From: Alphaproteobacteria bacterium
Lineage (GTDB): Bacteria > Pseudomonadota > Alphaproteobacteria > DSM-16000 > Inquilinaceae
Direction: 5' to 3'
NCBI GenBank assembly: GCA_028281925.1
Contig: JANQIX010000089.1
Coordinates: forward strand, 1-64,000
Length of the DNA stretch: 64,000 nucleotides
Made by a program: the position numbers and the translations under genes. A model generated the notes under the pieces. The model was not told the origin of the DNA. It searched no databases and was given only the letters and a program-made list of their open reading frames with translations. Shown here one piece after another: positions 4,111-62,716 of this stretch (positions within the stretch are counted from its first letter, which is position 1; each line of letters begins with the position of its first letter).

Positions 4111-4979
4111 ATGCTGCCGTCGGCCAGCGCCAGCAGATACTGGCCATAGCCCGTCTGCGCCAGTCTGCCGGCCTGCTCCCGCAACGCGCTCTGGGATATC
4201 CAGCCCTGCCGGTACGCGATCTCTTCCAAGCAGGCAATGCGCAGGCCCTGGCGCTCTTCGATCGTCTGGACGAACTCACCGGCATGCAGAAGGGCCTCGT
4301 GCGTACCGGTATCCAGCCAGGCATAGCCGCGGCCAAGCAGCTCGACCCGCAGATCGCCGCGCTTCAGATAAGCTGAGATCACGTCTGTGATCTCAAGCTC
4401 TCCACGCGCCGACGGGCGCACCCGGTCGGCAATCTCCAGGACGTCATTGTCGTAGAAATACAGGCCCGTAATGGCGAACGGCGATTTCGGCCGTTTCGGC
4501 TTCTCTTCAATGCCGACAGGCTTCCCGGTCGCGTCGAACTGGATCACGCCGTAGCGCTGGGGCTGGGCGACGCGGTAACCGAAGATCGTGGCACCGCGAT
4601 CGTGTTCGGCGGCCCGGCGCACGATCTCGGGCAGCCCGGCGCCGAAGAACAGATTGTCCCCGAGCACCAGCGCGACCGTGTCCGCTCCCACGAAATCCCG
4701 CCCGATGTGAAAGGCCTGGGCCAGGCCGTCAGGGCTCGGCTGCTCGGCATATTGCAGCGCCACGCCGTAGGCCGATCCGTCGTTCAGCAGACGCTCGAAC
4801 AAAGGCCTGTCGCGCGGCGTCGTGATGACAAGGATGTCGCGAATACCTGCCAGCATCAGCGTCGACAGCGGATAGTAGATCATCGGCTTGTCGTGCACCG
4901 GCAACAGCTGCTTGGAGACGGAGATAGTCAGAGGATAGAGGCGGCTGCCGGTTCCCCCGGCCAGGACAATGCCCTTCAT
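4107..4979 (-). CDS. rfbA: glucose-1-phosphate thymidylyltransferase
   Basis: It makes dTDP-glucose from glucose-1-phosphate and dTTP. The 290-aa protein has the nucleotidyltransferase signature [11 protein letters not shown] (8-18), the following K23 of SKQLLPV, LGDN (106-109) for metal and substrate binding, and an EEKP motif near 158. Length and motifs match RmlA throughout. It is transcribed towards rfbB and ends 20 bp from it. The product feeds rfbB; together they supply an activated deoxy-sugar precursor to the glycosyltransferases downstream. Confidence 0.95.
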
Positions 4980-49541: not shown

Positions 49542-50477
49542 ATGAAGACCAACCCGGTCACCGCAGCCGATCTTCGCAGCTCCGTCTTGGCGGTGCCGCC
49601 GCTTGCCCGCCACGGGGACTTGTCGCTCAACCCCGAAGCCAACCGCCGGATGATCCGCCATCTCGAGAGCGGTGGCGTGACCACGCTAATGTACGGCGGC
49701 AACGCAAATCTATACAACATTGCATTAAAAGAATACGATACCGCGTTGTCATTACTTGAAGATTCGGCGGCAGCTGAGACCTGGGTTATCCCCTCGGCCG
49801 GGCCCGATTTCGGCCGGCTGACCGACCAGGCCGATGTCCTGAAAGATCGCGCCTTTCCCACGGTGATGGTGCTGCCGCTCGCCTTCCCGGCGACGCCGGA
49901 CGGCGCTGCAAAGGCGATCCGCCTGTTTGCCGAGCGCATCGCCCGCAAGGTGATCCTCTATATGAAGACCGAGGCCTATCTCTCGGTCGATCACGTGCGT
50001 GCCCTGGTCGATGATGGCCTTGTGGCCGGCATCAAATACGCCGTAGTGCGCGAGGACCCGACCGTGGACCCGCTGCTGGAACGGCTGGTGCAGGCCGTCG
50101 ATCCATCGCTGATCGTCAGCGGCATCGGCGAGCGGCCGGCGATCGTCCACTTCACCCGGTTCGGCCTGGGTGCCTTCACCTCCGGCTCTGTGTGCGTCGC
50201 CCCGGCCGCGTCGACCCGCCTGCTGCGCGCGCTCGCATCGGGCGATGTCGAAACGGCCGAGACAATCCGCGGGCACTTCCTGCCCTTAGAGGATCTGCGC
50301 GACGGGTTGAGTCCGATCCGCGTGCTTCACGATGCCGTCACCCTTGCCGGCATTGCGGATATGGGCCCCATGCTGCCGATGCTCAGTAATCTGGAGGAGC
50401 GGCATCGGCACGATGTGGCAGCGGCGGCGCGCGCCCTTCTCGCTTACAATGGCACGATGATGACGGCGGCTGCTTGA
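49542..50477 (+). CDS. dihydrodipicolinate synthase family aldolase
   Basis: A 311-aa class I aldolase/lyase of the DapA (NAL) family. The Schiff-base Lys is K165 in AGIKYAV and the assisting Tyr is Y140 in ILYMK. The usual GTTGE substrate loop is replaced by GGNANLYN (52-59), which argues against true DapA and for a 2-keto-3-deoxy-acid aldolase or dehydratase. GGGAGG lies 7 nt before the ATG. It starts the plus-strand operon with an Ldh-family dehydrogenase and TAXI-TRAP genes, divergent from the sugar-acid dehydratase operon. Confidence 0.88.
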   Translation: MKTNPVTAADLRSSVLAVPPLARHGDLSLNPEANRRMIRHLESGGVTTLMYGGNANLYNIALKEYDTALSLLEDSAAAETWVIPSAGPDFGRLTDQADVLKDRAFPTVMVLPLAFPATPDGAAKAIRLFAERIARKVILYMKTEAYLSVDHVRALVDDGLVAGIKYAVVREDPTVDPLLERLVQAVDPSLIVSGIGERPAIVHFTRFGLGAFTSGSVCVAPAASTRLLRALASGDVETAETIRGHFLPLEDLRDGLSPIRVLHDAVTLAGIADMGPMLPMLSNLEERHRHDVAAAARALLAYNGTMMTAAA

Positions 50478-50495
50478 CCGGGGGCGTTGGGTCCC

Positions 50496-51563
50496 ATGGG
50501 CATTCCCGCGATACACCTGCGGTCGCAGATCGAGAGCGTGCTGACGGCCTGGGGGTTTGGGGCCGCAGATGTCGCCGCCACCGCCGAAGCGCTGGTCTGG
50601 GCCGATCTCCGCGCCATCGACAGTCACGGCATCGCGCTGCTGCTGCTCTATGAGCAGTTCCTGAGCCAGGGCTCGCTGATCGTTCGCCCCGAGGTTGGCG
50701 TTGTGCGCGACCGGGCTGCCACCGCCGTAGTCGATGGCGGCGGCGGGCTGGGGCATCGACCGGCGTGCCTGGCTGCGGATCTGGCCACAGAGAAGGCGCA
50801 GGCGTTCGGTCTCGGCGCCGTTGCCGTGCGCAACAGCAATCATTTCGGCGCCGCCGGCTTCTACGCCGCCGGCATGGCCGAGAAGGGCGTTCTGGGCATC
50901 GTCACCTCGTCCGTCCACCTGCCCGCCATCGTGCCGACCTTCGGCACGGTGCCGATGCTGGGCACCAATCCGATTGCTCTCGCTGCGCCGACGTCCCGCA
51001 ACCGTCCCTTCGTGCTGGACATGGCCACCAGCACGGCCGCCATAGGCAAGCTGCGCCTGGCCAAGCGCGCCGGCCGGCAGCTTCCGGTCGGCTGGGCGCT
51101 CGACACCCAGGGCCGGCCGGAGACCGACCCTGACGCCGCGCTCGTCGTCAAGCGGCTGACACCGCTGGGCGGAAGCCGGGAACTCGGCGGCCATAAGGGC
51201 TACGGCCTCGCCACGCTGGTGGAGATTCTCTCGACCACGCTCTCGGGCGCCGCCTTCGCGCCGCTTCGGCCAAAGGACAACACGCAGCTGGATGTGGGCC
51301 ATTTCCTGATGGCCATCGACCCCGACGCCTTCCGCGAGACCGGCGACTTCGAAGACGATCTGGACGCTCTGATCGATGCCATGCGCGCGAGCCCCCCGGC
51401 CGAAACCGGACAGCCGGTTATGGTCGCCGGCGACCCGGAACACGCGGCGCATGACGAACGATCGGTCCATGGAATTCCGCTCGGCGACAGCCTCCTGAAC
51501 GACCTGAAGGCTCTCGCCAAGCGGTGCGGCGCCCCCTTCCACCTGGCGGAGGGGGTGCCATAA
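50496..51563 (+). CDS. Ldh family (malate/L-lactate dehydrogenase-type) oxidoreductase
   Basis: A 355-aa NAD(P)-dependent 2-hydroxyacid or imino-acid dehydrogenase of the LdhL/YlbC/DpkA fold, unrelated to Rossmann lactate dehydrogenases. It has DLRAIDSHGIALLLL, NSNHFGAAGFYA with the conserved His, FVLDMATSTAAIGKL and GGHKGYGLATLVEILS. It begins at ATG 50496, 19 bp after the aldolase stop. It could oxidise or reduce the keto acid produced by its neighbours. Confidence 0.9.
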   Translation: MGIPAIHLRSQIESVLTAWGFGAADVAATAEALVWADLRAIDSHGIALLLLYEQFLSQGSLIVRPEVGVVRDRAATAVVDGGGGLGHRPACLAADLATEKAQAFGLGAVAVRNSNHFGAAGFYAAGMAEKGVLGIVTSSVHLPAIVPTFGTVPMLGTNPIALAAPTSRNRPFVLDMATSTAAIGKLRLAKRAGRQLPVGWALDTQGRPETDPDAALVVKRLTPLGGSRELGGHKGYGLATLVEILSTTLSGAAFAPLRPKDNTQLDVGHFLMAIDPDAFRETGDFEDDLDALIDAMRASPPAETGQPVMVAGDPEHAAHDERSVHGIPLGDSLLNDLKALAKRCGAPFHLAEGVP

Positions 51564-51630
51564 CGCCGAACCACAAGCCCCCGGCGTTCGACTCGTAACG
51601 CAGAAGAGAAAGCACAACACGGAGGAAACC

Positions 51631-52581
51631 ATGACGCATCGGACACGCTATACCCTGGCCGGCCTTCTGCTCGCCGGCACGACCCTGACCGCCGGCACGG
51701 CGGGTGCACAGTCGCTGACGCTGATGACGGGCCCGCAGGGCGGCTCGTGGTACCCGCTGGGCGGTGCTATCCAGGCGATCGTCGAAGCCAATATCGACGG
51801 CGTCAGCATGCAAGTGATGCCGGGCGGCGGTGTGGCCAATGTGCAGGGCGTGCAGGGCGGCCGCAGCGACCTGGGCTTCGCCAACTCCGTCTCCACCGTC
51901 GATGCCATTAATGGCCGCGACCCGTTCGAAGAAGCGGCGGACAATGTGTGCAATGTCGCCACGCTCTATCCTCAGTACTTCCAGGTCGTGACCACGACGG
52001 ACACCGGCATCGAGACCGTAGCGGATATCGGCGGCCGCTCGCTCGCCACCCAGCCGCGCGGCAATACCGGTGAGCAGATCACCCGGCAGATGCTGCAGGT
52101 GATCGACCAGACGCCGGACAGCATGGCCGACTATCACCAGGTTTCGTACACCGATGCGGTGTCGTTGATGAAGGATGGCAATGCCGAGGTGTTCACGCTG
52201 GGCACCACGGTGCCGGCCGGTGCCATCATGGACCTCGCCAGCGCGCGCGACATCCACCTGATCGGCATGGACGACACCACGTTCGATGCGATGCGGGAAC
52301 TGAATCCCGGCTTCAACATGCTCACGATCCCCGGGGGCAGCTATCCCGGCGTCGATGACGACGTGAACGTGATCGGCTATGCCACCCACGTGATCGCTCG
52401 CTGCGATCTGGATGCCGATCTGGTGCACAACATCCTCGACAACGTCTATGCCAACATTGCCGATCTGCAGGCGATCGCACGGGCGATGGAGGGTATCACG
52501 CCGGCCGACATGGCCGTCGAGACGGGCGTGCCGCTGCACCCGGGTGCGGAGCGCTGGTACACCGAGCAAGGCGCCCTTTAG
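51631..52581 (+). CDS. TAXI family TRAP transporter solute-binding protein
   Basis: A periplasmic receptor of 316 aa. The signal peptide MTHRTRYTLAGLLLAGTTL ends at about residue 27 (AGAQ), and the mature protein opens with TLMTGPQGGSWYPLGGAIQ, the defining TAXI motif. AAGAATVNG-type details are replaced by GRSDLGFANS. GGAGG precedes the ATG. TAXI receptors usually bind glutamate-like or other organic acids. The fused permease follows after a hairpin. Confidence 0.93.
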   Translation: MTHRTRYTLAGLLLAGTTLTAGTAGAQSLTLMTGPQGGSWYPLGGAIQAIVEANIDGVSMQVMPGGGVANVQGVQGGRSDLGFANSVSTVDAINGRDPFEEAADNVCNVATLYPQYFQVVTTTDTGIETVADIGGRSLATQPRGNTGEQITRQMLQVIDQTPDSMADYHQVSYTDAVSLMKDGNAEVFTLGTTVPAGAIMDLASARDIHLIGMDDTTFDAMRELNPGFNMLTIPGGSYPGVDDDVNVIGYATHVIARCDLDADLVHNILDNVYANIADLQAIARAMEGITPADMAVETGVPLHPGAERWYTEQGAL

Positions 52582-52590
52582 TCGCAACCC

Positions 52591-52620
52591 TGCCGGGGGG
52601 CTTCGTGCGGCCCCCCGGCA
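52591..52620 (+). terminator. attenuating hairpin between TAXI receptor and permease
   Basis: A perfect 10-bp stem (TGCCGGGGGG / CCCCCCGGCA) with a 10-nt loop, 9 bp after the receptor stop. A moderately T-rich sequence follows. It occupies the same position as the dctP/dctQ hairpin and probably favours receptor expression. Confidence 0.5.
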
Positions 52621-52641
52621 ACCGTTCGTTCTTTCGCAAGC

Positions 52642-54519
52642 ATGAGCCCCAAGATCGCCACCTGGACGCAGCGACTGACCATGGCGGTGGCGCTCGGTAT
52701 GAGCTGCTATCACCTGTACATCGCCTTTGTCGGCACACCGAACGCCATTGTGCTGCGCAGCTCCCATGTGGGCTTCGCGCTGGTGCTGGCGTTCCTCACG
52801 CTGCCCATGTGGTCCCGCACGGGCGGGCGCGAGGGGCCGAGGGTGGCGGACATCCTGTTCATGGTCGCCGCCTTGGCGGTCTCCGCCTATCCGATCCTGC
52901 AGCTCGACTACATCCTCAACCGCTTCATCTACATTACGCCGCTCAACGACAGCGACGTCGTCGTCGGGATCGCGCTGTTGCTGCTGGTGCTGGAGGCGAC
53001 GCGGCGCGCGCTGGGGCCCATCCTGCCGCTGACCGCTCTGTTGTTCGTGGGCTACGCGCTGGTCTTCACCGGCACCAATCCCGAGGTGCTTCTGGAACAG
53101 CTCACCCTGTCGACGGAGGGCGTCTACGGCATTCCGGCCGGCGTCTCGGCCACCTTCATCGTGCTGTTCATCATCTTCGGCGCGCTGGTGGAGCGCAGCG
53201 GGGCGGGCCGGCTGTTCATGGATTTCGCGCTCAGCCTGACCGGCAGTGCGGCGGGCGGTCCTGCCAAGGTCGCCTGCATCACCAGCGGTCTGTTCGGCAG
53301 CGTTTCCGGCAGCGCCGTTGCGAATGTGATGACCACCGGCACGTTCACCATCCCGCTGATGAAGCGCATCGGCTATCGCCCCGCCTTTGCCGGCGCGGTG
53401 GAGGCCGTGGCCTCGACCGGTGGGCAGATCATGCCGCCGATCATGGGGGCGGCCGCCTTCGTCATGGCCGAGTTCCTGGGCGTCAGCTATCTGACCGTCG
53501 CAGGCTTCGCGTTGATCCCGGCCGTGCTCTATTACGTCGCCCTGTTCGCCGCGGTGCATTTCGAGGCCAAGCGCACCGGCATGCGCGGTCTGCCGCGCAG
53601 TGAACTGCCGCGCGTCTGGGATGTGCTGCGCGAGCGCGGGCACCTGTTCCTGCCGCTGCTGATCATCCTGGGCGTCTTGTTCAACGGCTACAGCGCGCAG
53701 TTCGCAGCGCTGTGCGGCATCGTCTCGGTCATCCCGACCATGCTCATGCGCAAGACGACCCGCAAAGACGTGACCTTTACCATGATCGTCGAAGCGCTGC
53801 AGGCTGGCGCCCGCGGTGCGGTACCGGTGGCACTGGCCTGTGCCAGTGCCGGCATCGTGATCGGCGTGATTACGCTGACCGGGCTGGGGCTCGATTTCAC
53901 CGGCCTGGTTGTCGGCATCGCCCAGGACACGCTGTTCCTGGCGCTGATCCTTACCATGGTGGCGGGCATCATCCTGGGCATGGGCATGCCGACGACGCCG
54001 GCCTACATCGTCATGGTGGCGCTCTTGGCCCGGGCGCTGGAACAGCTCGGCATCCCTATCGAGGCAGCCCATCTGTTCCTCTTCTACTACGCCATCCTCT
54101 CGGCCATCACGCCGCCGGTGGCGATTGCCGTCTATGCCGCCAACGGGCTTTCCGGCGCCGGACTGTGGGCAAGCAGCCTGGCGGCGGTGAAGCTTGGGGC
54201 CACGGGCTATATCGTGCCGTTCATGTTCGCCTTGGGCCCGGCGCTCTTGATGATCGGCCCGTGGCACGGCGTGGCCATGGCCGTAGCCACGGCCGTCGTC
54301 GGCGTGGTGTGCCTGGCAGCCTCGCTGCACGGCTATTTCCTGGCGGCCACGCCGTGGTGGCAGCGGCTGGTTCTGGTCGCCGCGGCCTTCGTGCTCATCT
54401 ATCCGGGCCTGCTGACGGACGGCATCGGTGTGGGTCTTGTCGCCCTGGTGGTGGCGATGCAGATGCTGCGCCCGGCGACGCCGGCACCGCAGCCCGTCGA
54501 TGCCGACCGTGGCGGCTGA
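52642..54519 (+). CDS. TRAP transporter fused permease (DctQM type)
   Basis: A 625-aa permease in which the small four-helix and large multi-helix subunits are one chain, as is usual for TAXI systems. About 16 hydrophobic segments are visible. The large-subunit signature GLFGSVSGSAVANVMTTGTF and the region GGQIMPPIMGAAAFVMAE are present, as well as a late GMGMPTTPAYIVMVAL. The ATG at 52642 has little Shine-Dalgarno sequence. It works with the receptor encoded upstream. Confidence 0.93.
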   Translation: MSPKIATWTQRLTMAVALGMSCYHLYIAFVGTPNAIVLRSSHVGFALVLAFLTLPMWSRTGGREGPRVADILFMVAALAVSAYPILQLDYILNRFIYITPLNDSDVVVGIALLLLVLEATRRALGPILPLTALLFVGYALVFTGTNPEVLLEQLTLSTEGVYGIPAGVSATFIVLFIIFGALVERSGAGRLFMDFALSLTGSAAGGPAKVACITSGLFGSVSGSAVANVMTTGTFTIPLMKRIGYRPAFAGAVEAVASTGGQIMPPIMGAAAFVMAEFLGVSYLTVAGFALIPAVLYYVALFAAVHFEAKRTGMRGLPRSELPRVWDVLRERGHLFLPLLIILGVLFNGYSAQFAALCGIVSVIPTMLMRKTTRKDVTFTMIVEALQAGARGAVPVALACASAGIVIGVITLTGLGLDFTGLVVGIAQDTLFLALILTMVAGIILGMGMPTTPAYIVMVALLARALEQLGIPIEAAHLFLFYYAILSAITPPVAIAVYAANGLSGAGLWASSLAAVKLGATGYIVPFMFALGPALLMIGPWHGVAMAVATAVVGVVCLAASLHGYFLAATPWWQRLVLVAAAFVLIYPGLLTDGIGVGLVALVVAMQMLRPATPAPQPVDADRGG

Positions 54520-54805
54520 CAGCCGACCAGCGCAGCGGGCCTGGAAGCGTGCACTGTAGTCACATGCCATTCAGGAGATACCGCCCATTGACGCAAGACA
54601 GCCGGGCGCGGGTAGCCGCAGCGTCTCAGATGGCCAACCGCAAAGTGTTCGAAGAGATCCAAGCCTACGCGGGGATGGCGCGCGGGTTGGGGTCTACGCC
54701 ACAGAAACGTCGTCCCCACGAAGGCGGGGACCTTCATGGGCAGCGTCACGCAACCAGCCACAAGCATGCCTGCGCCCGACGATCGATCGCTTCGGAGCCT
54801 TGCCC
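54520..54805. other. intergenic region with a REP-like hairpin
   Basis: About 285 bp before the acyl-CoA synthetase. Positions 54712-54731 form a hairpin (GTCCCC / GGGGAC around ACGAAGGC) of the form common in scattered repeats of Alphaproteobacteria. No gene is supported. Confidence 0.45.
54712..54731. repeat. REP-like palindrome
   Basis: A 6-bp perfect stem with an 8-nt loop containing GAAGGC, embedded in GTCCCC...GGGGACCTTC. Its form recalls the dispersed TCCCCGCGAAAGCGGGGA family. Only one copy is seen in the window. Confidence 0.4.
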
Positions 54806-56344
54806 GTGACTCAAAGCCTGGCCGACATCGTTGTCGGCGATCGCCTGATCGAGGGCACCACGCTGGCCGACCGCATCGACCGGGCAGCAGGGATGCTGCA
54901 CGGCCTCGGCGTCCGCGCTGGTGACGTCGTCGCCCTGCTGTTGCGCAATGACGTCGTGTTCCTTGAGGCGATGTTCGCCGCTCGTCGGCTCGGCGCCTAT
55001 TCATGCCCCATCAACTGGCATTTTCCGCCGGCCGACATTGCTTACATCCTCAGCGACAGTGGGGCGACGGTCTTGGTCGGCCATGCGGATCTGCTGGCCG
55101 GCCTGCGGACCACCCTCGACACGACGCTTCGGGTTCTGGCCGCAACGCCGTCACCGGAAGTCGCGGCGGCCCATCGCCTATCGCCCGATGCCTGCCGGAC
55201 ACCCGACGGTTTGGCCGACTGGGACACTGCGGTCGCCGACGCGCGACCCTATGACGGCCCGAGCCCGCCGCCCGGCGGCAACATGCCCTATACCTCCGGC
55301 ACCACCGGCCGCCCCAAGGGTGTGCGGCGCGCATCGCCGACGCCGGAGCATCTAGCGCGCATGGCGGCGATGACCGAAACGGCGCTGGGCATCACACCGG
55401 GCGTGCGGACGGGGGCGACCGGCCCGCTCTACCACACCGCGCCCAACACGCATGTCACGCACGCGATGCTGCGTGGCGAACGCGTGGTGCTGTTCCCGCG
55501 CTTCGATGCGGCGGCAACGCTGGCCGCCATCGAGCGGCACCGGCTGACCAACATCTATCTGGTGCCGACCATGTTCGTGCGCCTGCTGGCGCTGCCGGAA
55601 GCCGAGCGCCGCCGCCACGACCTCTCCAGCCTGCGCTTCGTCGCCAGCACCGGCGCGCCCTGCCCGCCCGCGGTCAAGCGCGCGATGATCGACTGGCTGG
55701 GCCCGATCATCAACGAGACCTATGCCGGCAGCGAAACCGGCTATCTGACTGCCGTGTCGTCCGAAGAGTGGCTGGCCCGCCCCGGTACCGCCGGCCGCGC
55801 CATTGCAGGTGCCACCGTGCGCATCTATGCCGACGACGGCACGGTCTGCCCGCCGGGCACGCCCGGCACGATCCATGTCCGCCAAGATGCCTATCCTGAC
55901 TTCACCTACGTCAACAGTCCGGAGGCACGCCGGGCGGTGGAGCGCGACGGCCTGATCACCATGGGCGACGTCGGCTACCTGGACGAAGACGGCTATCTGT
56001 TCATCTGCGACCGTGCGGCCGACATGGTGATCTCCGGCGGCGTGAACATCTATCCGGCCCAGATCGAAGCCGCCCTGATGACCCTGCCGGGCATCGCCGA
56101 CTGCGCCGTGTTCGGCATCCCCGACGCCGAGTTCGGGGAGGCCCTGGCCGCGGCAGTGCAGCCTGAACCGGGACGGACGGTCACCGAGGAAGACGTGCGG
56201 CAGCACCTGGAGGGTGAGGTCGCTCGCTATATGATCCCAAAGGTGGTGACATTCCACGCGTCCCTGCCCCGCGAAGACAGCGGCAAGATCTTCAAACGTG
56301 TGCTGAGGACCCCTTACTGGACCCAAGCGGGGCGTCTCATCTAA
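54806..56344 (+). CDS. AMP-binding acyl-CoA synthetase
   Basis: An ANL-superfamily ligase of 512 aa that activates a carboxylic acid to its CoA ester. The phosphate-binding motif MPYTSGTTGRPKG, the adenine motif ETYAGSETGY, the hinge region YLFICDRAADMVISGGVNIYP and the C-terminal catalytic Lys in SGKIFKR are all present. I prefer GTG 54806, with CGGAG 8 nt upstream; TTG 54800 is possible. The gene is convergent with the ptx regulator gene. Its substrate is unknown; it may serve acids imported by the adjacent TAXI system. Confidence 0.9.
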   Translation: MTQSLADIVVGDRLIEGTTLADRIDRAAGMLHGLGVRAGDVVALLLRNDVVFLEAMFAARRLGAYSCPINWHFPPADIAYILSDSGATVLVGHADLLAGLRTTLDTTLRVLAATPSPEVAAAHRLSPDACRTPDGLADWDTAVADARPYDGPSPPPGGNMPYTSGTTGRPKGVRRASPTPEHLARMAAMTETALGITPGVRTGATGPLYHTAPNTHVTHAMLRGERVVLFPRFDAAATLAAIERHRLTNIYLVPTMFVRLLALPEAERRRHDLSSLRFVASTGAPCPPAVKRAMIDWLGPIINETYAGSETGYLTAVSSEEWLARPGTAGRAIAGATVRIYADDGTVCPPGTPGTIHVRQDAYPDFTYVNSPEARRAVERDGLITMGDVGYLDEDGYLFICDRAADMVISGGVNIYPAQIEAALMTLPGIADCAVFGIPDAEFGEALAAAVQPEPGRTVTEEDVRQHLEGEVARYMIPKVVTFHASLPREDSGKIFKRVLRTPYWTQAGRLI

Positions 56345-56362
56345 GACGTCTTTGGCAGCCCC

Positions 56363-57241
56363 TCAGCCGTCGCTGCGGTCGCCCGCCAGCGATCGGGCGA
56401 AGCGCGCTGTGACGTCGTCGTCCGGCAGGTTGGCGGGGCGGGCGATATAGAACGTCTTTGCCAGCGGCACAGCTTCAAGCGCAACGCTTGCCAACCGGCC
56501 GTCCGCCACATCGTCGGCCACCGCCTGCTCCAGCACGATCGATGCGCCGAGCCCGGACTTCACCGCGCTCTTCACCGCTTCCGTGGAGCCCACATTCGCG
56601 GCGATCGTGACGTCGGCCGACCGATCGCCCAACAGACCGCGCAGCACTGTGCCGGTGCCGGAGCCGCTCTCGCCGCCGATCAGGCGCAGGCTCAAGAACT
56701 CGTCGACCGCGATGGCAGTGCGCCCGGCCCAGGGGTGGTCGGGGGGCAGGATCACCGTCATCCTGGCGTCGCGCCATGTCTCCACGGCGATGCCGGGGGC
56801 ATCCATGGGCCATTCCATGGCCGCCAAGTCGATCTCCCGGCTCTTCAGCATCTCCGCGATCTGGGGGTTGGGGGCGGTCTTGACCTCCCACCCGCCGGTC
56901 CAGCCGTCGGCCTCCAGGAACCGTTTGATGGCCCGGGAGATGAAATAGCCGGCGATGTTGCCGCTGCAGCCGATCACCAGCGCGCTTTCCTGCGCCACGG
57001 CGGCGGCGCGTTCGGCCGTGCGCAGCAGGCTGCGCGCATAGGGCAACAGCCGCTCGCCGTGGCGGGTCGAGCGGCTGCCGGCATGGCTGCGCTCGATCAG
57101 CATCACGCCCAGGTCCTGTTCCAGCTTCTTGATGTGCTGTGAGATCGTGGGCTGGGCGATCTGCAGCCGCGCGGCGGCATCCTGAAAGCTGCCGGTTTCG
57201 GCCAGGCTGACGAAGCTGCGCAGAAGGGAGAGGTTCAGCAT
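56363..57241 (-). CDS. ptxE: LysR-family regulator of the phosphite cluster
   Basis: A 292-aa LysR-type regulator. An N-terminal winged helix-turn-helix (about 1-60; SLRSFVSLAETGSFQDAA...QPTISQHIKKLE) is followed by a periplasmic-binding-like effector domain. Its ATG overlaps the ptxD stop by 7 nt, so it is translationally coupled to the phosphite dehydrogenase. In Pseudomonas stutzeri the ptx operon also carries a LysR gene, ptxE, next to ptxD. The gene name here rests on context, not on specific sequence features. Confidence 0.85.
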   Translation of the reverse strand: MLNLSLLRSFVSLAETGSFQDAAARLQIAQPTISQHIKKLEQDLGVMLIERSHAGSRSTRHGERLLPYARSLLRTAERAAAVAQESALVIGCSGNIAGYFISRAIKRFLEADGWTGGWEVKTAPNPQIAEMLKSREIDLAAMEWPMDAPGIAVETWRDARMTVILPPDHPWAGRTAIAVDEFLSLRLIGGESGSGTGTVLRGLLGDRSADVTIAANVGSTEAVKSAVKSGLGASIVLEQAVADDVADGRLASVALEAVPLAKTFYIARPANLPDDDVTARFARSLAGDRSDG

Positions 57242-58245
57242 CGGCCGGCGACCTCAAGCGCGTCCGGGTTGATCAGCGTCTCCGGCACGCCGCCCCGCAG
57301 TACCGTCAGGATGCTGTCGGCGGCCGACGCAGCGATGGCCCGGCGTACCTCCACGACAGCGGAGCCGATATGCGGTGTCAGCACTGTCCTGTCGGACGCG
57401 ATCAGTTCGGGATGGACGGCGCGCGGCCGGTCCTGCCGGCTCCAGTCCTCCATCTCAAAGGTGTCGGACGCATAGCCGGCCAGATGACCGCTCTTCAGAG
57501 CCTGCGCCACCGCCGCCTCCTCCACCAAGCTGCCCCGGGCGGGATTGACCAGCCGCGCCCCCGGCTTCATCCGGGCGAGGAAGCCGGCGTCCACCATGTG
57601 CATCGTGCCCTCGGTCAACGGGACGGCCAGAACGACGAAGTCCGAGATGGCGATCAGCTCATCAAGCGGCACACGGGTCGCCGTCAGCGACCGTTCCGTC
57701 GTTGGGTCGAGCGGCCGCAGATCGTGATAGAGGCGCTGACCGCGAAACCCGGAGAGCAGGCGCAGGATCTCGCGGCCCACCGCCCCGGCCCCCACAACGC
57801 CAACCGTCGCCCCCTGGATTGTGCCGCCATAGAGATGCGGCCGCCATCCGGCGAAGTCACCCGAACGCATATGCGCATCGCCGGCCCAGAGGTTGCGTGC
57901 CAGCGCAATCATCAGGCCGATGGCCAGCTCCGCCGTCGGCTCGGTCAAGAGATCGGGCACGATCGTCACCAGCACGCCGCGGTCCGTGCACGCCGCCACG
58001 TCCAGATTGTCGAAGCCCTTCAAGGCCCCGGCGACGATGCGCAGACGGGGACAGGCGTCCAGCAACGCCGCATCGACCGTCTCGGTCATGAACGCCATCA
58101 GCGCGACCGCATCCCGGCACGCGTCCCGCAACGCAGCGGGCGGCAGCGGCGTTTCCTCGGGGTTGGCGAACACCTCCCCGGCCTCGCGAAGCCGCGTCAG
58201 GATCTCTTCTTCTATCCGGTTCGGAACGACGATCTTGCGCGCCAT
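57235..58245 (-). CDS. ptxD: phosphite (phosphonate) dehydrogenase
   Basis: It oxidises phosphite to phosphate with NAD+. The 336-aa D-2-hydroxyacid dehydrogenase-fold protein matches Pseudomonas stutzeri PtxD along its length, with shared blocks such as ALKGFDN, VPDLLT, PTAELAIGL and FEMEDW. The four catalytic residues fall at identical numbers: K76, R237, E266 and H292. The dinucleotide loop is GAGAVG (152-157). D175 replaces PtxD's E175, so an acidic residue still favours NAD+ over NADP+. It is divergent from a phosphite/phosphonate ABC transporter and coupled to a LysR gene, the context expected of ptx. This is a confident assignment. Confidence 0.94.
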   Translation of the reverse strand: MARKIVVPNRIEEEILTRLREAGEVFANPEETPLPPAALRDACRDAVALMAFMTETVDAALLDACPRLRIVAGALKGFDNLDVAACTDRGVLVTIVPDLLTEPTAELAIGLMIALARNLWAGDAHMRSGDFAGWRPHLYGGTIQGATVGVVGAGAVGREILRLLSGFRGQRLYHDLRPLDPTTERSLTATRVPLDELIAISDFVVLAVPLTEGTMHMVDAGFLARMKPGARLVNPARGSLVEEAAVAQALKSGHLAGYASDTFEMEDWSRQDRPRAVHPELIASDRTVLTPHIGSAVVEVRRAIAASAADSILTVLRGGVPETLINPDALEVAGRC

Positions 58246-58391
58246 ATCGTGGTGCGATCCCCCTTTTGCTGTTTCTTCATCTAGTTAGCAGAGCCAAAAC
58301 ATCATTGCAATACGTCATCAAAGCTTCACTTGCATTGGAAAACGCAATGAAATAGCCAATCGCCGTCACGGGTGATCACGGAGGTCCTGTC
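58246..58391. promoter_or_regulatory. ptxD-ptxA divergent control region
   Basis: This 146-bp AT-rich region holds TTGCATTGGAAAACGCAA (58330-58347), an inverted repeat with arms TTGCATT/AACGCAA (one mismatch) typical of LysR sites. ATTGCAAT lies at 58304-58311. Between them a 7-4-7 arrangement ACGTCAT-CAAA-GCTTCAC (58312-58329) loosely resembles a Pho box (9 of 14 bases). Regulation by PtxE and perhaps PhoB is suggested, not shown. Confidence 0.45.
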
Positions 58392-59225
58392 ATGGCTCTC
58401 GACGCTGTGGAGGTGGGGTCGCCCGCCCCTCCGGCCTTCCCGCTTCGAAAGATCGGCTTCGACCCGGAACCGGCAGGTGCGGACGACCCGATCGTCCGGC
58501 TGCACGGTGTCGAGGTGGTTTATCCCAACGGCACGGTGGCCCTGCAGCCCACGGATCTGGAGCTTTCGGACCGGCAGGTGACGGTGCTGCTGGGCCCGTC
58601 AGGTGCCGGCAAGTCGACGCTGTTGCGCAGCTTGAATCTGCTGGTCAGGCCGACCCGCGGCACAGTGCGGTCGCGCGACATGGGTGAGCTGGTGCGGCAA
58701 TCGACGATCCGACAGCACCGGTGCGGCACTGCGATGATCTTTCAGCAGCACCAGCTGATCGGCCGGCTGCCTGCCCTGCACAACGTACTGATGTCGCGCC
58801 TGGGCCGGCATTCGTTCTGGCGGACGTTGATCGGCTTCTCAGACGCGGAGCGCCGCTTGGCGCTGGACTGCCTGAACCGCGTCGGCCTGTTCGATCAGGC
58901 GCTGACCCGCTGCGACAATCTCTCCGGCGGACAGCAACAGCGCGTAGGCATCGCGCGCGCTCTTGCCCAAGAGCCGAAGATGATCCTGGCGGACGAGCCG
59001 GTGGCGTCACTCGATCCGACATCGTCGGAACGTGTGCTGACCGTGCTCAGGACAATCTGCCGGGAAGATCGGATCCCGGTGATCATCAGTCTGCATCAGC
59101 TGGAATACGCACGCGAATTCGCCGACCGGATCATCGGCCTCATGCAGGGCCGCGTGGTGTTCGACGGTCCGCCGGACAGGCTGGACGACCAGGCGCTGTC
59201 GCTCATCTACGGCGCCCGCAGCTAG
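58392..59225 (+). CDS. ptxA: phosphite/phosphonate ABC transporter ATP-binding protein
   Basis: A 277-aa PhnC/PtxA-type ATPase. An N-terminal extension of about 33 residues precedes the nucleotide-binding domain. Walker A is GPSGAGKS (68-75), the Q-loop is [10 protein letters not shown], the signature is LSGGQQQR (about 177-184) and Walker B is [16 protein letters not shown] lies 7 nt upstream of the ATG. It is followed by the binding protein and permease. With ptxD across the promoter, phosphite is the likeliest cargo. Confidence 0.9.
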
Positions 59226-59290
59226 ACCCGGTTCCCCGCCCGGATCGGTACCCGGGCCCCAAAAGCATCAACCCAGACGGAGAGAGACCC

Positions 59291-60172
59291 ATGAAACGAA
59301 CGATGCTCGCCGCTGCCACAGTGACCCTGGGGGCCGGCGTGGCGCTCGCCGCCGGCGACCATGATCCCGACACGCTGCGCATTGCGCTCTTGCCGGACGA
59401 AAACGCCGCGACCGTGATCCAGGATAACGAGCCCCTGGCCAACCATCTGGAAGCCGCGCTCGGCCGCGAGATCGAGCTGATCGTCACGACGGACTATTCC
59501 TCGATGATCGAGGCGACCCGCTTCGGCCGGATCGACGTCGCCTATTTCGGCCCCGCGTCCTACACCATCGCGCGGGAGCGCATGGAAGAGGGCGACCTGT
59601 TGATCGAGCCGTTCGCGGCCCGGCTGAAGGACGGCAGCACGACCTACCAGTCGGTGCTGATCGCCAATGTGGACTCCGGCATCACGTCGATCGCCGATAT
59701 CGAAGGCTCGGGCATCGACGTCGCCTTCGGCGACCAGGCCTCGACCTCCAGCCATTTTGCGCCGAAATACACCATGCTGCTGGAAGGCGTGACCGTCGGC
59801 GAGGATTACGAGGAGAACTTCACCGGCGCCCACGACGCCGTGGCCCGCAATGTGGAGCTGGGCAATGCCGAGGTCGGCGGCCTGAGCCGCCCGATCTTCG
59901 AGCGGCTGATCGAACGCGAGATGGTGGATGCCGACCAGATCGTGGTCATCGGCTATTCCGCCGACATCCCGCAATACCCCTGGGTGATGCGCACCGACCT
60001 GACGCAAGAGCTGCAAGACGGCATCCGAGCCGCGTTCCTGGAGCTTGAGCTCGGCACCGAGGTCGGCGACGCCGTGCTTGGCCCCTTCTCCGCCGACGGC
60101 TTCGCCCCGATCACGGACGCGGATTACGACATCATTCGCGCCATCCGGTCAGAACTGCAGCCCGAAGGCTAA
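59291..60172 (+). CDS. ptxB: phosphite/phosphonate ABC transporter substrate-binding protein
   Basis: A periplasmic PhnD-family receptor of 293 aa. A signal peptide (MKRTMLAAATVTLGAGVALA) precedes the mature LRIALLPDENAATVIQ. Ligand-site segments of the family are present: TDYSSMIEATRFG and VAYFGPASYTIA, where the Tyr and the helix N-terminus bind the phosphonate-like head group. ATG 59291 follows GGAGAGA at good distance. The frame is open far upstream, but that part overlaps ptxA and is not coding. Confidence 0.92.
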   Translation: MKRTMLAAATVTLGAGVALAAGDHDPDTLRIALLPDENAATVIQDNEPLANHLEAALGREIELIVTTDYSSMIEATRFGRIDVAYFGPASYTIARERMEEGDLLIEPFAARLKDGSTTYQSVLIANVDSGITSIADIEGSGIDVAFGDQASTSSHFAPKYTMLLEGVTVGEDYEENFTGAHDAVARNVELGNAEVGGLSRPIFERLIEREMVDADQIVVIGYSADIPQYPWVMRTDLTQELQDGIRAAFLELELGTEVGDAVLGPFSADGFAPITDADYDIIRAIRSELQPEG

Positions 60173-60201
60173 TGCCTCACGGCGAAGAGGAGGCTTGAGC
60201 G

Positions 60202-61026
60202 ATGAACCGACCCCTTGCCGACGCCCGCAGTGCCGACGAGATCCGTGGCGTTCTGAAGGCCGAACGCAGGGGGCGGCATCGTCTGATGCTGCAGGTCAGC
60301 GCCGTTCTGGCCATCATCGTCCTGTGCCTCTGGGTTACAGGCATGCTGGACGGCGCCAGGCTGGCCGATGGCCTGCCGGCCATCGGTGTGCTGTTCACCG
60401 ACATGATCCCGCCGGATTTCACCCGCTGGCGGGCCTGGGTCGACCCGATGGTCGAGACCCTCGCCATGTCCGTCGCGGGCACAGCGCTGGCGATCTTTTT
60501 CTCCGTCCCGCTGGCCTTCCTGGCGGCGCGCAACACCGCGCCCAACGCCTGGACCTATCAGGCGGCCCGGCTGGTGCTGAACGCGCTCCGCGCCATCCCG
60601 GAACTGATCATGGGCATCGTCTTCGTCGCGGCCGTCGGCTTCGGCATGCTGCCGGGTGTACTGGCGCTGGGCCTGCATTCCGTCGGCATGGTCGGCAAGT
60701 TCTTCGCCGAGGCGATCGAACACGCCCACCCCGCCCCCATCGAGGCTGCGGAGGCCGCCGGCGCCAGCCGCCTGCAGGTGATCACCCACGGCGTCCTGCC
60801 GCAGGTGTTCCCGCAATTCGCCGACGTGACCATGTACCGGTGGGAATACAACTTCCGTGCCTCCACCGTCATGGGCATGGTCGGGGCCGGCGGCATCGGC
60901 ACGGAGTTGGTCGGCTCGCTGCGCATCCTGGACTACCCCCAGGTCTCCGCCCTGTTGATCATCATCCTGGTCACGGTGACGATCGTCGATGCGCTCAGCA
61001 ACATGCTGCGCAAGCGGTTCAACTAG
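60202..61026 (+). CDS. ptxC: phosphite/phosphonate ABC transporter permease
   Basis: A 274-aa PhnE-family permease with about six membrane segments. The EAA loop that docks the ATPase reads EAAEAAGASRLQVITHGVLP. The C-terminus TELVGSLRILDYPQV is typical for PhnE. GGAGG lies upstream of the ATG. It is the last gene of ptxABC. A decayed second copy of its final 51 codons is found at 62214-62369. Confidence 0.92.
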   Translation: MNRPLADARSADEIRGVLKAERRGRHRLMLQVSAVLAIIVLCLWVTGMLDGARLADGLPAIGVLFTDMIPPDFTRWRAWVDPMVETLAMSVAGTALAIFFSVPLAFLAARNTAPNAWTYQAARLVLNALRAIPELIMGIVFVAAVGFGMLPGVLALGLHSVGMVGKFFAEAIEHAHPAPIEAAEAAGASRLQVITHGVLPQVFPQFADVTMYRWEYNFRASTVMGMVGAGGIGTELVGSLRILDYPQVSALLIIILVTVTIVDALSNMLRKRFN

Positions 61027-61053
61027 GCGCCCTCACTGCCTACGTCCCCACCA

Positions 61054-61072
61054 CCAATGACCGTCTCATTGG
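61054..61072. terminator. hairpin between ptxC and the convergent cytochrome-b-like gene
   Basis: A perfect 7-bp stem CCAATGA / TCATTGG with a 5-nt loop, overlapping the stop codon of the leftward gene. No T-run. Candidate bidirectional terminator. Confidence 0.35.
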
Positions 61073-61974
61073 TTCGCGCGCCTGAGAGTGAACGGCACCA
61101 CCAGAAAGAAGGCAAACCAGCAGACTATCAGGGCGCGGCTTACGGCAATGACGCTGCCGTCCGGCACCTGGGTCCCTTGCCAGGTCAGCAGGCCCCACAC
61201 CATAGCCAGCCCGAGACAGGCCAATCGCCATCCCCACCGCGCCCGTCCCGCGCGCAAACGTTCCGCGCGGTACCAGGCGGCAAGCAGGGGCAGCACGATC
61301 GCCAAGAACATGACGACGACACCGGCGAGCTTGCCAGGCACGGCGCGGAGCATCGCGTACACGTGCAGGACGTACCACTCGGGCACGATGACGGCAGGTG
61401 TGAGCATCGACCCACCGGCCCCGGATAGCGGGTCCTCTACCGGGACGGCCAGACGAGAGACGATAAGGTGAACGATGCCGGCGATTGCGATCCCAGAGGC
61501 GACCAAAGCGACCCAAGCTTTTGCCGAGCGCGTCCGCCACGCGACCGCCTGCATCGCAATAAAGTTCGCCAGCAACGCCATGCCAAGCAGGGCGGTCACA
61601 ACACCCAACAGCGTGATGCTCTCTGGGATGGCGCGTGAAAGGGGCTCCAGGGCCGGGCCGATTACAGGCTGGGCCGCAAGCCAGGCGCCGAACGGTCCGG
61701 CGGGCATGGTGAAGCTTTGGAAGACGACCGCGAACGATATCAGATAGGCCGCGATCAGGATGAACCACGTAGCCCGGCGCAGCTTATAGAGCTCGCCGAC
61801 ATAGATCGTGAAGGCTGCGTGCACGACGAACGCAAGATGAATGCTTGTCGTCGGGCCCAGACCTGCGGCCAGCCATGCAATCGCGCCGTCGACGGCAATC
61901 GCCACGAGCAGCACGAGCGACGCGTCGAGCGAACGGGGATGGCGTGGCGAGTGGATCGCCGGCGGCGCGCTCAT
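61066..61974 (-). CDS. cytochrome b-fold membrane protein, heme ligands mostly absent
   Basis: A 302-aa protein with about eight hydrophobic segments. Residues 188-215 (MLTPAVIVPEWYVL...YAMLRAVPGKLAGV) follow the C-terminal cytochrome b region closely, including the PEWY quinol-site motif (198-201). The first half can be laid on helices B-D of cytochrome b, with H52 near the position of one heme ligand. The other ligand positions on helices B and D are non-His, and the helix A part is reduced. It has no Rieske or cytochrome c1 neighbour. It is convergent with ptxC. Function unknown; it may be a quinone-binding protein or a relic. Confidence 0.65.
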   Translation of the reverse strand: MSAPPAIHSPRHPRSLDASLVLLVAIAVDGAIAWLAAGLGPTTSIHLAFVVHAAFTIYVGELYKLRRATWFILIAAYLISFAVVFQSFTMPAGPFGAWLAAQPVIGPALEPLSRAIPESITLLGVVTALLGMALLANFIAMQAVAWRTRSAKAWVALVASGIAIAGIVHLIVSRLAVPVEDPLSGAGGSMLTPAVIVPEWYVLHVYAMLRAVPGKLAGVVVMFLAIVLPLLAAWYRAERLRAGRARWGWRLACLGLAMVWGLLTWQGTQVPDGSVIAVSRALIVCWFAFFLVVPFTLRRANQ

Positions 61975-62213
61975 TTCGACTCCCTATCTCCGATGTCATC
62001 GTTTGTATGCGCATGCTGCCAGTCGGTCTGGCGTGCAATCTTGAGCTGCCGGGTGCGAACGCACCCATCGGAACGGCCCGGCACTCTCGATCACCGCCTT
62101 CATCGTGGCGCTGTTCGGCCAAAGTAGGGTCGGCGGAGCCGAAATTGGCCCTGCTCTTGCCCCTTTGTACGCGGTGTGGATGTCCGCATGTGCCGGCGCC
62201 AAGCCAGCATTGC
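61975..62213. other. region between cytochrome-b-like gene and ptxC remnant
   Basis: About 240 bp with overlapping short frames on both strands but no ribosome site or recognisable product. It probably contains the promoter of the leftward gene and further decayed DNA. Confidence 0.35.
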
Positions 62214-62369
62214 ATCGGCATGGTCGGCGGCATCGGTATCGGCGCGGAACTGGTTGGCTCGCTTCGCATCCTTGATTGCCCCCAGGTCTTGGCCCTCTTG
62301 AACGCCATCCTGGTCACCGTGACGATCGTGAACCCACCCAGCAACTTGCCGAGCAAGCTGTACACGTAG
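62214..62369 (+). pseudogene. C-terminal remnant of a ptxC/phnE permease gene
   Basis: Read in frame to TAG at 62367-62369, this stretch gives GMVGGIGIGAELVGSLRIL and continues to the stop. By hand alignment it matches 34 of 51 C-terminal residues of the intact ptxC product, and the DNA is alike too. There is no start and no upstream permease sequence in frame, and the last ten codons are degraded (PPSNLPSKLYT). It is a broken duplicate, or a relic of a second permease gene such as the phnE2 found in some phosphonate systems. Confidence 0.75.
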
Positions 62370-62716
62370 GGGGATGCATTTGGCCGAAGGGCGGACGGCC
62401 GAAATCCGCCCTTCAGCAGCCGTCGCTTCAAATGAACCAAGTCGAGTGCTTATGACCCTGACCGGTCATGTGAATGGCGCAGTTCGCGATGCTCTGTTCC
62501 GCCCCGAACGACTACTTGGACCCACCACAGGAAGCTGCTGGGTATTGAGTATCTGGCAGCGTCCGCTTCGTCCAGGCTCCAGCGAGTGAGATCCGCGAGT
62601 ATCGATCTGAAGCTATCTCGTCGACTGTCCCGTTAATCGTTATTATTCGGACAATGCTTCATCCTTATGGCCCCGCGGCAACGAGACGGTTCAACCCCCA
62701 ATTCCTCGCGCCCCCA
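62370..62716. other. non-coding boundary before low-GC accessory DNA
   Basis: About 350 bp. No gene is supported. GC content starts to fall near 62600. Confidence 0.4.

Follow-up and report, generated by a model that had tools for sequence, protein, structure and literature searches.

Does the region at positions 56363–61026 of a 64,000-nucleotide stretch of an alphaproteobacterial genome (family Inquilinaceae; contig JANQIX010000089.1, hereafter the window) encode a system for phosphite use, and how might its two oppositely read arms be controlled? Of the region's five genes, ptxD and a LysR gene are read from the minus strand; beyond a 146-bp gap, the plus strand carries ptxA, ptxB and ptxC. 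We read it as an assimilatory phosphite locus under probable PtxE-type control of both arms, with an apparently inverted promoter–ptxABC block, at a probability of roughly 0.9. Phosphite uptake and NAD-linked oxidation are a well-supported prediction, as already proposed in the initial annotation: homology, pocket residues and gene content agree.

Gene content of the locus

The features are as follows.

56363–57241, minus strand: ptxE-type LysR-family regulator, 292 aa (PF00126 and PF03466)
57235–58245, minus strand: ptxD-type phosphite dehydrogenase, 336 aa (PF02826 and PF00389, PDB relatives, pocket residues, tree)
57235–57241, minus strand: 7-bp overlap ATGCTGA between the end of ptxD and the start of ptxE
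58246–58391, no strand: divergent intergenic region, 146 bp
58334–58348, plus strand: candidate PtxE operator ATTGGAAAACGCAAT (ATTG-N7-CAAT palindrome), from the de novo motif in divergent gaps
58392–59225, plus strand: ptxA-type ATP-binding protein (PhnC/PtxA type), 277 aa (TIGR02315 above cut-off)
59291–60172, plus strand: ptxB-type phosphite-binding protein (PhnD/PtxB type), 293 aa (best PDB match PtxB 5o2j)
60202–61026, plus strand: ptxC-type permease (PhnE/PtxC type), 274 aa (TIGR01097 above cut-off)

The initial annotation had described a complete ptxABC/ptxDE set in divergent arrangement, with a LysR gene overlapping the ptxD stop and a PhnCDE-type ATP-binding cassette (ABC) transporter read the other way. 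Open reading frames and family scans agree with this naming, the overlap comprises 7 bp, and all three transporter genes lie on the plus strand. The locus has two divergent arms, so it is not one co-directional transcription unit like the classical ptxABCDE.

The dehydrogenase

The 14 top PDB sequences for the 336-aa protein were phosphite (phosphonate) dehydrogenases (best E 1.5e-98, 333 bits), and the next match was a glyoxylate reductase (6bii; 2.6e-66, 227 bits). Identity to the enzyme of an Escherichia coli plasmid operon (L018), which is near-identical to PDB 9pr0, was 51% over 326 aligned columns.

K76, R237, E266 and H292 had been announced at Pseudomonas stutzeri numbering. All four were found at exactly those numbers, matching the P. 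stutzeri-like enzyme of L018. As markers of PtxD they were unequal: R237, E266 and H292 were present in all seven own-genome paralogues examined, while K76 was present in none of the seven and in 47 of 48 PtxD sequences (L026 has R). Therefore, K76 alone of the four is diagnostic. Among pocket residues, the window enzyme carries M53, L75, K76, L100, T104, W134, Y139, R237, E266, H292, S295 and R301. M53, L100, T104, W134, S295 and R301 occurred in 48 of 48 PtxD sequences and Y139 in 45 (F in three). Some paralogues share L100, T104, W134, S295 or R301, whereas M53 and Y139 are absent from all of them. Position 175 is acidic (D175; E175 in the L018 enzyme), which fits the use of NAD.

A tree had been suggested as a check. 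It split the 48 PtxD sequences, window included, from the seven paralogues with a support of 100/99, and placement outside the PtxD clade was not seen; in this tree L018 stood in for the characterised enzymes, the paralogues sat on long branches, and the rows included no characterised enzyme outside PtxD that was closer than these. Both the PDB relatives and the tree group the window enzyme closest to characterised phosphite dehydrogenases and apart from other D-2-hydroxyacid dehydrogenases. By sequence, the protein is PtxD.

The transporter

The best PDB match of the binding protein was PtxB (5o2j, 281 bits), against 61 bits for E. coli PhnD (3p7i) and 33 bits for HtxB. A hypophosphite transporter was considered and rejected, as HtxB came last among 17 listed PDB relatives of this protein. 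According to PMC5700983, P. stutzeri PtxB contacts phosphite through D16, Y94, S124, T125, S126 and H155 (an STS-H motif, a hinge Tyr and the Asp partner of the cap Tyr). These residues are kept as D36, Y119, S151, T152, S153 and H181, mapped via the near-identical L018 PtxB with a numbering offset that we set ourselves. The cap Tyr, in PQYPW at 227–231, was paired with Te_PtxB Y208 by eye, without a numbered check. The 293-aa protein is thus PtxB by sequence.

The transporter was called from an ATPase and a permease above their family cut-offs, both adjoining ptxB. The ptxA product reached 293.8 bits with the PhnC model TIGR02315 (cut-off 266.1) and the ptxC product 299.3 bits with the PhnE model TIGR01097 (cut-off 216.7). 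PtxA was 59% identical to that of L018 (251 columns) and PtxC 61% (266 columns). The ptxB product scored 217.3 bits with TIGR01098 (cut-off 112.05) and stayed under the cut-off of the PhnD model TIGR03431 (187.2 vs 261.1).

This last match could be taken to mean that the transporter imports organic phosphonates, next to an ordinary D-2-hydroxyacid reductase of the glyoxylate type. Such a reductase shares its superfamily with PtxD, and the 336-aa protein does match glyoxylate reductase, both in NF009714 (234.6 of 455 bits, sub-cut-off) and in 6bii (227 bits). However, PtxD matches about 100 bits better, K76 separates the PtxD sequences from the paralogues, and the margin of PtxB over E. coli PhnD is about 220 bits. 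Moreover, the enzyme gene is repeatedly found next to the transporter genes, in divergent and co-directional loci alike and also on plasmids, which also argues against this combination. We consider it very improbable.

We propose the following route. PtxB would take phosphite in the periplasm, and PtxA and PtxC would import it at the expense of ATP. PtxD would then oxidise it with NAD, and the phosphate produced would join ordinary phosphorus metabolism. Energy gain from phosphite (dissimilatory oxidation) is an even fainter prospect than the reductase. PMC11933879 uses the names ptxD and ptxE for the dissimilatory pathway too, and it lists the ABC importer as an assimilatory set. At the window locus such an importer adjoins the enzyme gene. 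Among the flanking genes scanned were those of an AMP-binding ligase, of components of a TRAP-type transporter, of a protein with a cytochrome b C-terminal domain and of one unmatched protein; no search aimed at ptdC, F, G, H or I was made in the window or the genome.

Layout among relatives

The split of enzyme and regulator from the transporter had been presented as a departure of this locus. The split is real, but it is common among near relatives and not peculiar to the window: it is shared by same-genus and same-family genomes, roseobacter plasmids, other alphaproteobacterial loci and a second group of four rows. The initial annotation also suggested that the split may alter how uptake and oxidation are balanced. 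Plasmid gene orders were read in 8 of 40 listed records, out of 701 matching. Plasmids of Roseovarius, Labrenzia, Sulfitobacter and Pseudosulfitobacter have the divergent order of the window; co-directional ptx genes were found in Skermanella, Pseudonocardia, Methylobacterium (its ptxA was missing from the gene table and was found by tblastn) and the E. coli plasmid. The 701 plasmid records contain a relative of PtxD at E ≤ 1e-50, and 577 of them are Klebsiella.

The best 80 of 351 relatives in genome_contigs comprised 26 divergent and 50 co-directional loci and 4 without a ptxABC match above the bit thresholds; since these are the loci nearest to the window, the sample is biased towards its layout. 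Counting every locus with a ptxD match, and so also the copies of the window and its two relatives, the 99 loci split into 36 divergent, 56 co-directional and 7 lacking ptxABC. For four of these seven, absence of ptxABC is not shown, because L023–L025 are 4-kb stretches and L048 lies at a contig end. The other three (L049, L052 with the feature at L052:6995-8832, and L068) have ptxD without a ptxABC match in the stretch covered; a LysR gene follows ptxD in L049 and L052, and L068 has no LysR match. Collapsed at 96% identity and with the window included, 48 rows remained: 19 divergent, 22 co-directional and 7 without ptxABC.

On the PtxD tree, two changes of layout suffice. A single clade of all divergent rows was narrowly rejected by the approximately unbiased (AU) test (p-AU 0.044), for a group named after an earlier tree had been seen. 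The window belongs to the first divergent group, whose titles are alphaproteobacterial save for a collapsed copy (L035) titled as a Marinobacter bin. The second consists of four rows: L050 and L083 (Burkholderiales), L104 (a betaproteobacterium) and L056, from lakes by their sample names. A literature search with most subscription papers outside its reach found no printed account of a divergent ptx layout, which does not make the layout undescribed.

The 7-bp ptxD/ptxE overlap was the same in the co-directional loci L018, L060, L082, L086 and L103 and in the divergent window, L019 (same genus) and L020 (same family), with the ptxE start taken as the start of the tblastn match. It was also found in L052, which has no ptxABC match beside it; the remaining loci had overlaps or gaps of different sizes. 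As the overlap is kept in both layouts, we count it in favour of an inversion that left the D–E pair intact. The simplest history would be an inversion in place of the promoter–ptxABC block relative to the classical ABCDE order, with D–E untouched.

The regulator and its candidate operator

The LysR protein matches PF00126 and PF03466, and all 25 NCBIfam models shown score under cut-off. A regulatory role is suggested by its family and by the position of its gene directly after ptxD. The PtxE of the same-genus locus is 97% identical to it.

A shared promoter between the arms had also been claimed. The shared regulatory gap of 146 bp stands, and a simple scan of 58100–58500 found neither a sigma-70-like promoter nor a terminator. 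A de novo search of 14 of the 19 divergent gaps (five near-duplicates were dropped beforehand) gave a 15-bp palindrome with the consensus ATTGCATAATGCAAT and a score of 75.5. The 40 shuffled sets, run at equal settings, had a mean score of 30.3 (sd 3.2, largest 39.1). Some sites were identical (window and L020; L011, L013 and L027). With one gap per identical-site group, the 11 gaps scored 53.2, against 28.0 in the shuffled sets (sd 2.4, largest 33.9). The shuffles overstate the significance, because the rows still share ancestry. Palindromes of 13 bp (49.0 vs a largest shuffled score of 37.1) and 17 bp (76.7 vs 40.4) also exceeded their controls, with fewer starts given to the shuffled sets than to the real set. 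In the window, the site lies 43 bp upstream of ptxA and 88 bp upstream of ptxD. With up to two mismatches, its sequence occurs once in the 64 kb, where 0.04 occurrences are expected. The usual LysR site is a T-N11-A dyad.

A profile was built from 11 of the 14 sites (leaving out the third identical site and those of L043 and L056) and run on the 300 bases before the ptxA match. Of the 22 collapsed co-directional rows, 19 were covered, with L067 in place of L022; L026, L053 and L062 have no ptxA match and were excluded. Five of the 19 had a box at p ≤ 0.005 (L017, L018, L060, L086 and L103; scores 14.2–16.1) and two at p 0.04 (L015 and L082), and the other 12 failed 0.05. These strong cases represent two lineages, since L018, L060, L086 and L103 form one clade. 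In control stretches before B, C and D of the same loci (n=57), the profile scored at most 7.8. At p ≤ 0.05, the box was found in 7 of 15 co-directional loci with a LysR match and in none of the four labelled as lacking one. The contrast is weak. Of the four, L016 carries a GntR gene and L054 lacks a match over 7 kb, but only 199 bases follow ptxD in L058, and in L077 the opposite strand gives a weak LysR-like match.

The ATTG-N7-CAAT palindrome is hence a candidate PtxE operator and the sole new lead at the locus. The PtxE-type regulator most likely binds it in the 146-bp gap, which would place both arms under joint control. More specifically, PtxE may be a phosphite-responsive switch acting on one conserved operator, located before ptxA in the classical layout and, after inversion in two lineages, between ptxA and ptxD, where it would work in two directions. 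We hold this tentatively, at somewhat less than even odds.

Several observations weigh against our reading of the locus. The box is not universal, as 8 of the 15 co-directional loci with a LysR match fail p 0.05. L042 has a medium box (10.0) yet no LysR match in its 11-kb locus. L043 and L046 are near copies; the box scored in L043 was weak (8.2), and the 15 kb of L046 contained no LysR match. The divergent gap of L056 has a poor site only (4.1). The window PtxE is just 37% identical to the classical PtxE of L018 (255 aligned columns). A Pho box in the window's gap was rejected (best 8 of 14 matches, p 0.975 with 200 shuffles). Finally, growth of the host on phosphite would not alone prove the locus, because the genome also holds a carbon–phosphorus lyase (PhnJ). 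Its other phosphorus genes include a PhoB above cut-off and two weaker PhnD-type matches.

Control may instead lie with PhoB, with the LysR gene a passenger through its overlap with ptxD and the palindrome belonging to another regulator. The classical ptx genes belong to the Pho regulon, and to our knowledge no role of PtxE has been demonstrated. The genome's own PhoB, the box-like site of L042 in a locus without a LysR match, and the Pho-box-like sites of L013, L045 and L056, three of the 19 divergent gaps (p ≤ 0.015), fit this explanation. The missing Pho box in the window's gap speaks against it, as does the box itself, a symmetric dyad of 15 bp, the length expected for LysR proteins. The failure of all four loci labelled without LysR to reach p 0.05 points the same way, weakly, given the doubts about L058 and L077. 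Control by PhoB is a real possibility, if a doubtful one.

Distribution and neighbourhood

Three of 17 family genomes have ptxD (E ≤ 1e-60), as do 7 of 385 genomes drawn from the class (E ≤ 1e-75), the window's own genome included in both. The same-genus L019 matches the window at about 50402–62457, covering both flanks. The match of the same-family L020 is restricted to the ptx locus (about 56375–61030), except that 83 bases of ptxA have a further match at another place in L020. Therefore, the locus moved or its surroundings changed.

Downstream of ptxC, a 302-aa protein (61066–61974, minus strand) matched only a cytochrome b C-terminal domain (PF00032, 7.2e-21) and has a PEWY motif. It sits between ptxC and a decayed fragment that repeats part of the 3′ end of ptxC (62184–62370, plus strand), of which 62213–62370 is 78% identical to 60870–61027. 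The cytochrome b stretch is present in L019 and unmatched in L020, and it has one weaker partial relative within the genome. L019 also has a decayed ptxC copy, at 4385–4528.

The locus is one more well-supported phosphite locus and belongs to a known system. The two-way layout is a recurrent form, mainly in alphaproteobacteria, with several cases on plasmids. Therefore, surveys that assume co-directional ptxABCD may misjudge phosphite loci. The common palindrome offers a concrete 15-bp target for probing the role of PtxE. If PtxE is indeed a switch, one box would control uptake and oxidation in both directions.

Comparison with known systems

The Pseudonocardia autotrophica plasmid operon (L016) shares the ABC and D genes with the window, in the co-directional order ABC-D. 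Unlike the window, it has a GntR gene in place of the LysR gene (L016:7966-8700), and no palindrome was found before its ptxA (p 0.94).

The P. stutzeri-type ptxABCDE (L018; PDB 9pr0/4e5n for PtxD and 5o2j for PtxB) has the same five genes, pocket residues and 7-bp overlap as the window, and a similar palindrome before ptxA. It is one co-directional operon, whereas the window has two divergent arms, and the proteins are 37–61% identical.

The roseobacter-type plasmids (Roseovarius indicus pRIdsm_03, Labrenzia THAF35, Sulfitobacter pontiacus and Pseudosulfitobacter SMR1) are mobilizable or conjugative by typing and carry transposase or recombinase genes near the ptx locus, whereas the window locus lies on a 65-kb contig of unassigned replicon. 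Their loci have the C-B-A / D-E order of the window and share its clade, with PtxD 66–70% identical.

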